From Halobaculum halobium (GTDB lineage Archaea; Halobacteriota; Halobacteria; Halobacteriales; Haloferacaceae), in NCBI RefSeq assembly GCF_030127145.1, contig NZ_CP126158.1, positions 1,364,001 to 1,428,000 on the forward strand: DNA of 64,000 bases. The letters are read 5' to 3'. The notes under the pieces are model-generated. The model saw only the letters and a program-made list of their open reading frames with translations, had not been told where the DNA came from and ran no database searches. Both the position numbers and the translations under genes were made by a program. Below, in pieces: positions 40,325-42,701 of this stretch (its first letter is position 1; each line of letters opens with the position of its first letter).

Positions 40325-40705
40325 TTACCGGGCGGTCGGTTCGAGGTCGTCGCCGACGGCGGACATGACCTGTGCGGCCGCGCTGGCGGCGAGTCCGCGG
40401 GCGACCTCCTCGCGGTCCTCGTCGTCGAGGCCGGCCTCGATGTCCTCCAGGTCCGGCGAGAACCCCGCGCTGACGGCGTGGCCGATGGGTGGCTGGACCG
40501 CGACGGTAGCCTGCGGCCCGTTCGTGCCGTAAGAGAGTTCGGAGCCGACGGCGTAGCCGTCGGGGAGATACGATTCGGTTCGCGTGACGATGGTGGCGAC
40601 CGCCTGCCGGAGCGCGTCCTTCTGATCGGTCGTGAGGTCGACCTCCTCGGGACGGCCCGCCTCGACGACGCCAGGCGCCCCCGCATAGGGGTTGTTACCG
40701 TTCAT
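40325..40705 (-). CDS. Haloarchaeal DUF5811-type protein
   Basis: This 126-residue protein matches, from memory, the haloarchaeal DUF5811 family: MNGNNPYAGAPGVVEAGRPE, TTDQKDALRQAVATIVTRTE, SYLPDGYAVGSELSYGTNG and QATVAVQPPIGHAVSAGFSP. The function is unknown. It follows the pdaD gene on the same strand with a 99-base gap. A TATA box read as ctttatac on the minus strand (40734-40742) predicts a start near the ATG. Confidence 0.78.
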   Translation of the reverse strand: MNGNNPYAGAPGVVEAGRPEEVDLTTDQKDALRQAVATIVTRTESYLPDGYAVGSELSYGTNGPQATVAVQPPIGHAVSAGFSPDLEDIEAGLDDEDREEVARGLAASAAAQVMSAVGDDLEPTAR

Positions 40706-40804: not shown

Positions 40805-41286
40805 TCAGGCGATCGGCTCGCTCTCGCCGTAGGCGGCGACGACGACGGCCGCGACGTACGCGGAGTCGTCGGTCTCGACGGTCGCGCATCGGGTCTCCTC
40901 GTGCTCGAATGTCCAGTCGCGGAGCTCGCGGCCGGCGTCGAGGCCGGTCTGCACCGTCTCGCGGACCGCGTCGGCGTCGCCGCCGTCGGCTTCGTAGAAC
41001 AGCCCCGGACCGGGACCGGTGGCCCACCCGAGGCAGGCGGTGACGCTGTCGGTCTCGTGGGCGTCCTCGGGGAGGCGGCGGCGCGCGCTTGGACGACCGT
41101 GAGGCGGTCGCCCGCGGGCCCGAGTTCCGGGGCGGTGTCGACGGCGCGGACCTCGGCGTCCGCGGGGACGACCGACGAGACCGTGACGAGGTTGAAGTCG
41201 CCGACGCCCGCGTCGGTGAGCGCGGCGTCGTACGCGGCCAACGCTGTCGGGCCGCTGCCGACGCCGTCGGCGACGTGGATGTCCAT
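40805..41286 (-). pseudogene. pdaD: Pyruvoyl-dependent arginine decarboxylase, frameshifted
   Basis: The gene would encode about 160 residues converting arginine to agmatine. The 5' half, from ATG 41286, has MDIHVADGVGSGPTALAAYD and FNLVTVSSVVPADAEV; the Ser-Ser pair is the self-cleavage site that makes the pyruvoyl group. After LTVVQARA the frame is lost. The rest (PEDAHETDSVTACLGWATGP, GPGLFYEADGGDADAV, WTFEHEETRCATVETDDSAY) continues in a second frame ending at 40805. One missing base in the GC run at about 41071-41090 explains it. In archaea agmatine is needed for agmatidine in tRNA-Ile, so true loss would be surprising; a sequence error is a real possibility. Confidence 0.85.
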
Positions 41287-41465: not shown

Positions 41466-42701
41466 TCAGTACTGGTAGCGACCGAACTCGCCGTCGTTGA
41501 ACACCGGGCCCTCGTTGCTCGTCTCGACCTTCTCGCGGGCCTGCTCGAAGTCCTCGCGGCGGACGGCCGTCCGCTCGTCGCGGATGGCGAACATCCCCGC
41601 CTCGGTCGTGAGCGCCGCGATGTCGGCGCCGGAGTAGTCGTCGAGCTCGGCCGCGAGGTCGGCGAAGTCGACGTCGTCGGCGACGCTCATGTCGGCCGTG
41701 TGGATCTCGAGGATGCGCTCGCGGCCCTCGGGGCCGGGCTTTGGCACCTCGATGAGGCGGTCGAAGCGGCCGGGTCGGAGGATGGCCTCGTCGAGCATGT
41801 CGAAGCGGTTCGTCGCCGCGATGATCCGCACTTCCCCGCGGTCGTCGAAGCCGTCCATCTCGCTGAGTAGCTGCATCATCGTGCGCTGGACCTCGGCGTC
41901 GCCGGAGGTCTTCGAGTCCGTGCGCTTGGCGGCGACGGCGTCGATCTCGTCGATGAAGATGACCGCGGGTTCGCGCTCGCCCGCGAGGTCGAACAGGTCG
42001 CGAACGAGGCGCGCGCCTTCCCCGATGAACTTCCGGACCAGTTCCGAGCCGGCCATCTTGATGAACGTCGCGTCCGTCTCGTTGGCGACGGCCTTCGCGA
42101 GCATCGTCTTCCCGGTGCCGGGCGGACCGTGGAGCAACACCCCGCTGGGCGGCGTGATCCCGACTTTGCGGAACGCGTCGGCGTTGACGAGGGGGTCCTC
42201 GACGGCCTCGCGAACCTCGCGCACCTGGTCGTCGATACCGCCGATGTCGTCGTAGGTGACCTCGGGGTCGGCGTCGACCTCCATCGCCTGCGCGCGGGCG
42301 TCGGTCTCGTCGTCGAGCACCGTCTGCACGCTGAAGGAGTCGTTGATGGCGACGCGGTCGCCGGCTTCCAAGTCGTCCTCGAGGGTCGGCGAGAGGTCGG
42401 TGAGCACCTCCTGGTTGTTGCCGTGTTGCTTGATCACCGCGCCGTCGTCGGTGAGCTCCTCGACCGTCGCGATGTACAGCGACGCGGTCTTCAGCGCCTC
42501 GTTTCGGCGCTTGAGCTCGTCGACCTCCCCGCGGAGGTCTGCGCGGCGACCCTGAGCCTCGTCGAGGCGGTCGTCCAGCTCCGCGTTGACTTGGACGATC
42601 CGCTCGAAGTGTTTGCGAAGCGCCTCCAGCCGTTCGGCCTCGCTCATGTCGGGATCCAGATCGAGGCGAGGCCGGTCGGGGAGGGACGGACTCCGAGACA
42701 T
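41466..42701 (-). CDS. Proteasome-activating nucleotidase (PAN)
   Basis: This 411-residue AAA+ ATPase unfolds proteins and feeds them to the 20S proteasome. An N-terminal coiled coil (about 20-75) precedes an OB domain. Walker A GPPGTGKT is at 192-199, Walker B VIFIDEIDA near 247-255, and the second region of homology is ATNRFDMLDEAILRPGRFDR. The C-terminus ends RYQY. Most PANs end in the HbYX motif with Tyr next to last, whereas here Gln is in that place. Gene order suggests the PanB-type of haloarchaea (inference). A TATA-like cataaacgg (minus, 42724-42732) lies 27 bases upstream of the ATG. Confidence 0.95.
   Translation of the reverse strand: MSRSPSLPDRPRLDLDPDMSEAERLEALRKHFERIVQVNAELDDRLDEAQGRRADLRGEVDELKRRNEALKTASLYIATVEELTDDGAVIKQHGNNQEVLTDLSPTLEDDLEAGDRVAINDSFSVQTVLDDETDARAQAMEVDADPEVTYDDIGGIDDQVREVREAVEDPLVNADAFRKVGITPPSGVLLHGPPGTGKTMLAKAVANETDATFIKMAGSELVRKFIGEGARLVRDLFDLAGEREPAVIFIDEIDAVAAKRTDSKTSGDAEVQRTMMQLLSEMDGFDDRGEVRIIAATNRFDMLDEAILRPGRFDRLIEVPKPGPEGRERILEIHTADMSVADDVDFADLAAELDDYSGADIAALTTEAGMFAIRDERTAVRREDFEQAREKVETSNEGPVFNDGEFGRYQY

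Follow-up and report, generated by a model that had tools for sequence, protein, structure and literature searches.

Pyruvoyl-dependent arginine decarboxylase (PdaD) appears in the assembly of Halobaculum halobium (genome G000) in two reading frames, which raises the question of whether the gene is broken in the organism or only in its printed sequence. Here, we report a comparison with related genomes and a screen of the assembly for similar breaks, from which the break in PdaD is most likely not a real feature. The window (the whole stretch of DNA analyzed, 64,000 nucleotides) carries the gene on the minus strand from 41286 to 40805, arranged with its neighbors as follows.

41466..42701, minus strand: proteasome-type AAA ATPase, upstream neighbor (PF00004, PF17862, PF16450)
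41069..41286, minus strand: N-terminal half of PdaD, in the frame from the ATG at 41286, with the beta chain, the Ser37-Ser38 self-cleavage site, and the start of the alpha chain
41069..41072, minus strand: missing-base site, CCCC as read on the coding strand (11 Halobaculum genomes aligned with MAFFT)
40805..41074, minus strand: C-terminal half of PdaD, in another frame, with the stop TGA at 40805 to 40807
40325..40705, minus strand: DUF5811 protein, downstream neighbor (PF19128; E value, 1.3e-45)

In profile searches, the N-terminal half matched positions 5 to 74 of the 161 in PF01862 (E value, 1.3e-19), past which its frame runs into residues unrelated to the family, and the C-terminal half matched positions 76 to 160 (E value, 7.5e-4), scoring 19.9 bits on its own, below the gathering score of 22.7; together, the two pieces spanned the profile along the family length. 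A congener protein aligned with the N-terminal half over residues 1 to 76 (89% identity) and with the C-terminal half over residues 72 to 160 (92% identity). DNA alignment of the 11 Halobaculum genomes showed one base absent from the coding-strand run "cctc-cccgagg" (GGGG on the plus strand); the two pieces do lie in different frames, as the original prediction had it, and their junction does fall in a GC run, at the left edge of the interval first proposed (about 41071 to 41090). The run has five C in two congeners (G006 and G009) and reads TCG CCC or TCG CCG in most others; the lost base, judged from this alignment, is thus either one C of the run or a G whose loss creates the run. The cleavage site, which was expected to be intact, was found whole in the N-terminal half ("TVSSVVP") and aligned with the ISSIMP site of PDB 2qqd. 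In the family-length match of its combined halves, its retained Ser-Ser site, and the 160-amino-acid frame of its congeners, the gene resembles known PdaD (PF01862; PDB 1n2m and 2qqd; Haloferax volcanii HVO_1958), but it differs in that the printed frame is interrupted after about residue 72 and holds no single proenzyme open reading frame.

PdaD is a single open frame of 160 amino acids in 10 of 10 Halobaculum congeners and split in none (0/10), making the frameshift private to this genome among those compared; because all ten congeners share one open frame, it is not a chance feature. A PF01862 match was present in all 60 genomes searched, this one included. Measured against five congeners, each in its own frame, the two halves gave dN/dS values of 0.08 to 0.18 and 0.12 to 0.23, the differences being mostly silent, and the C-terminal half still looks conserved; such low values would be expected under either an artefact or a very recent mutation, as far as sequence comparison can speak. 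Short PF01862 matches in four genomes of other genera (G020, G022, G023, and G039) were considered as instances of the same break and rejected, being in-frame insertions in a variable loop. In-frame insertions of about 20 to 35 residues, one of them with a repeated DAGTTT-like unit, occur close to the frameshift position in the PdaD loop of four haloarchaeal genera other than Halobaculum. Actinobacterial relatives of PdaD (Cellulosimicrobium, Isoptericola, and others), about 38 to 50% identical to the haloarchaeal protein, possibly reflect gene transfer.

Other frame breaks in the assembly were sought in two 400-kb samples (G000:C1, 1.2 to 1.6 Mb and 1.6 to 2.0 Mb), with the congeners G006 and G009 as sources of queries and controls. 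By tblastn in the first sample, 12 of 226 G006 queries that were intact in G009 were split in G000 between two or three frames (165 were intact, 26 partial, and 23 weak or absent), as were 10 of 225 G009 queries that were intact in G006, pdaD among them; control targets were frame-broken in 0/173, 2/170, 1/177, and 1/176 cases, the control pair being closer to each other than to G000, with part of the excess due to divergence and start-site noise. The absence of pdaD from the G006 list probably reflects a G006 frame extended upstream to 244 amino acids. When 211 genes were aligned as DNA in all three genomes, 27 uncompensated frame-changing indels with good flanks were specific to G000, 6 to G006, and 8 to G009; some of these, near gene starts, are probably noncoding. 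In the second sample, tblastn was run without a third genome and was noisy (21/251, and 14/265 in reverse), so a strict DNA test was relied on there. Several N-terminal breaks were set down to start-site noise; in the frame of the DNA polymerase II small subunit, for instance, the break precedes the start of the family match.

The strict test admitted isolated gaps of 1 to 2 bases with 40 gap-free columns on each side and at least 80% identity, excluding the first tenth of the gene, which lowers the noise from divergence and start sites without abolishing it. In G000, the 211 genes of the first sample carried 10 deletions and 2 insertions and the 229 genes of the second carried 8 deletions and 1 insertion; over all 440 aligned genes, this makes 18 deletions of one or two bases and 3 insertions. 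The control comparison of G006 with G009 gave 1 event in 211 genes. With G000 frames as queries (232 genes), G006 showed 1 deletion and 5 insertions, 4 of the 5 being known G000 deletions seen in reverse. Fifteen of the 18 deletions lay at G/C runs of 4 to 5, which make up 4.0% of background positions (binomial p, ~9e-19), and three lay away from runs. Where a G/C run was identical in two congeners, a one-base gap appeared 7 times in G000 and 0 times in two control targets. Genes affected in the first sample included trpF (two events), mutL, larE, hydantoinase B, a GH32 protein, and an enoyl-CoA hydratase-like protein. Between 1.2 and 2.0 Mb of G000:C1, many genes lack a single base at a G/C run of 4 to 5; absences of genes read from this assembly are unreliable. 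Genome completeness (95.17) was set aside as a sign of poor assembly, being too weak a measure when congeners span 85 to 99.

This pattern of deletions is, by its sequence signature, that of homopolymer undercalling, and because so many homopolymer deletions occur in the same assembly, sequence error is the best explanation of the break in PdaD. The break is very probably an uncorrected error in which one base of a short G/C run was undercalled, as at many other places in this assembly, with a normal gene underneath. Pseudogenization of genes by long-read errors is a problem addressed by Kastor, according to its description (PMC12007338); the present case resembles such errors in its indel pattern, with many deletions of one base that cluster at G/C runs of 4 to 5 and are absent from congeners. 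We infer that the DNA of the cell does contain the base and that PdaD is active: the organism would have an ordinary, intact enzyme of 160 amino acids, whose proenzyme would cut itself at Ser37-Ser38 to form the pyruvoyl group and whose product, agmatine, would be supplied to TiaS.

The organism probably needs the gene. The argument from agmatine requirement in the original prediction agrees with a report on Hfx. volcanii (PMC5178350), which calls agmatidine essential and in which deletion of the pyruvoyl-type arginine decarboxylase yields an agmatine auxotroph that grows if agmatine is supplied; because of that auxotrophy, a true loss of PdaD should be costly for a strain that does not take up agmatine. 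A second agmatine source was sought with whole-genome profile searches (PF01862, PF17944, PF01276, PF02784, and PF02675). The broken gene was the sole PF01862 match, and PF17944, PF01276, and PF02675 had no match in the whole genome. The single PF02784 match was rejected as a second arginine decarboxylase, being LysA (diaminopimelate decarboxylase) by TIGR01048, in a gene that adjoins a dapF-like frame (judged by eye). The suggested genome-wide search for a second decarboxylase thus came back empty for the five Pfam families used. The agmatine-using TiaS still has an open frame, of 510 amino acids with no internal stop (PF08489; 136 bits against a cut-off of 21); a stricter NCBIfam TiaS model matched with an E value of 1.3e-90 but scored 304 bits, short of its curated cut-off of 600. 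No tRNA-Ile(CAU) turned up in a tRNA scan covering 400 kb of the genome.

A real, recent loss of function, in a strain that scavenges agmatine from its medium or in a mutator line with other recent frameshifts, is unlikely, and less likely than an assembly error. The low dN/dS of both halves would also be expected of a very recent mutation, the Hfx. volcanii orthologue can be deleted in the presence of supplied agmatine (PMC5178350), and mutL is itself among the frameshifted genes, making a real mutator conceivable; yet in Halobacterium salinarum, deletion of mutS and mutL is reported to have left the mutation rate unchanged (PMC2816208), one-base deletions bearing a homopolymer signature recur over the sampled genome, and a TiaS frame that is still open, with no arginine decarboxylase found in another of the families searched, also speaks against a loss. 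That the strain is a natural agmatine auxotroph, keeping TiaS and importing the agmatine it lives on, perhaps within a lineage that is gathering homopolymer deletions, seems improbable.

The original prediction held that a true knockout would call for another agmatine source or programmed frameshifting; the frameshift stands in the printed sequence, the other source was missing from the families searched, and the recoding showed no sign of itself. Programmed -1 ribosomal frameshifting or transcriptional slippage joining the halves could draw on the conservation of each half in its own frame and on a junction within a G/C run, but it is very hard to credit: the run is four C only, its codons (GCC TCC CCG AGG, by inspection of the alignment) form no X XXY YYZ heptamer, RNA downstream of the junction folds like shuffled sequences (z scores, -0.99 and -0.56), all 10 congeners are intact, and fifteen other genes in the sampled stretches carry one- or two-base deletions. 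A slippery heptamer, an unusual RNA fold, and conservation of the split, sought as hallmarks at this junction, were thus none of them found.

Although self-cleavage naturally leaves PdaD with two chains, a really split gene whose halves are translated separately and then associate can practically be dismissed, as the break lies about 34 residues past Ser37-Ser38, no start codon was seen by eye near the junction in the C-terminal frame (the first GTG is about 40 codons on), and no congener has this form.

If the frameshift were true, a haloarchaeon could dispense with making agmatine, which is needed for tRNA-Ile(CAU) modification. If the break is an artefact, gene losses read from this genome (trpF, mutL, larE, and pdaD among them) would be untrustworthy without better reads.
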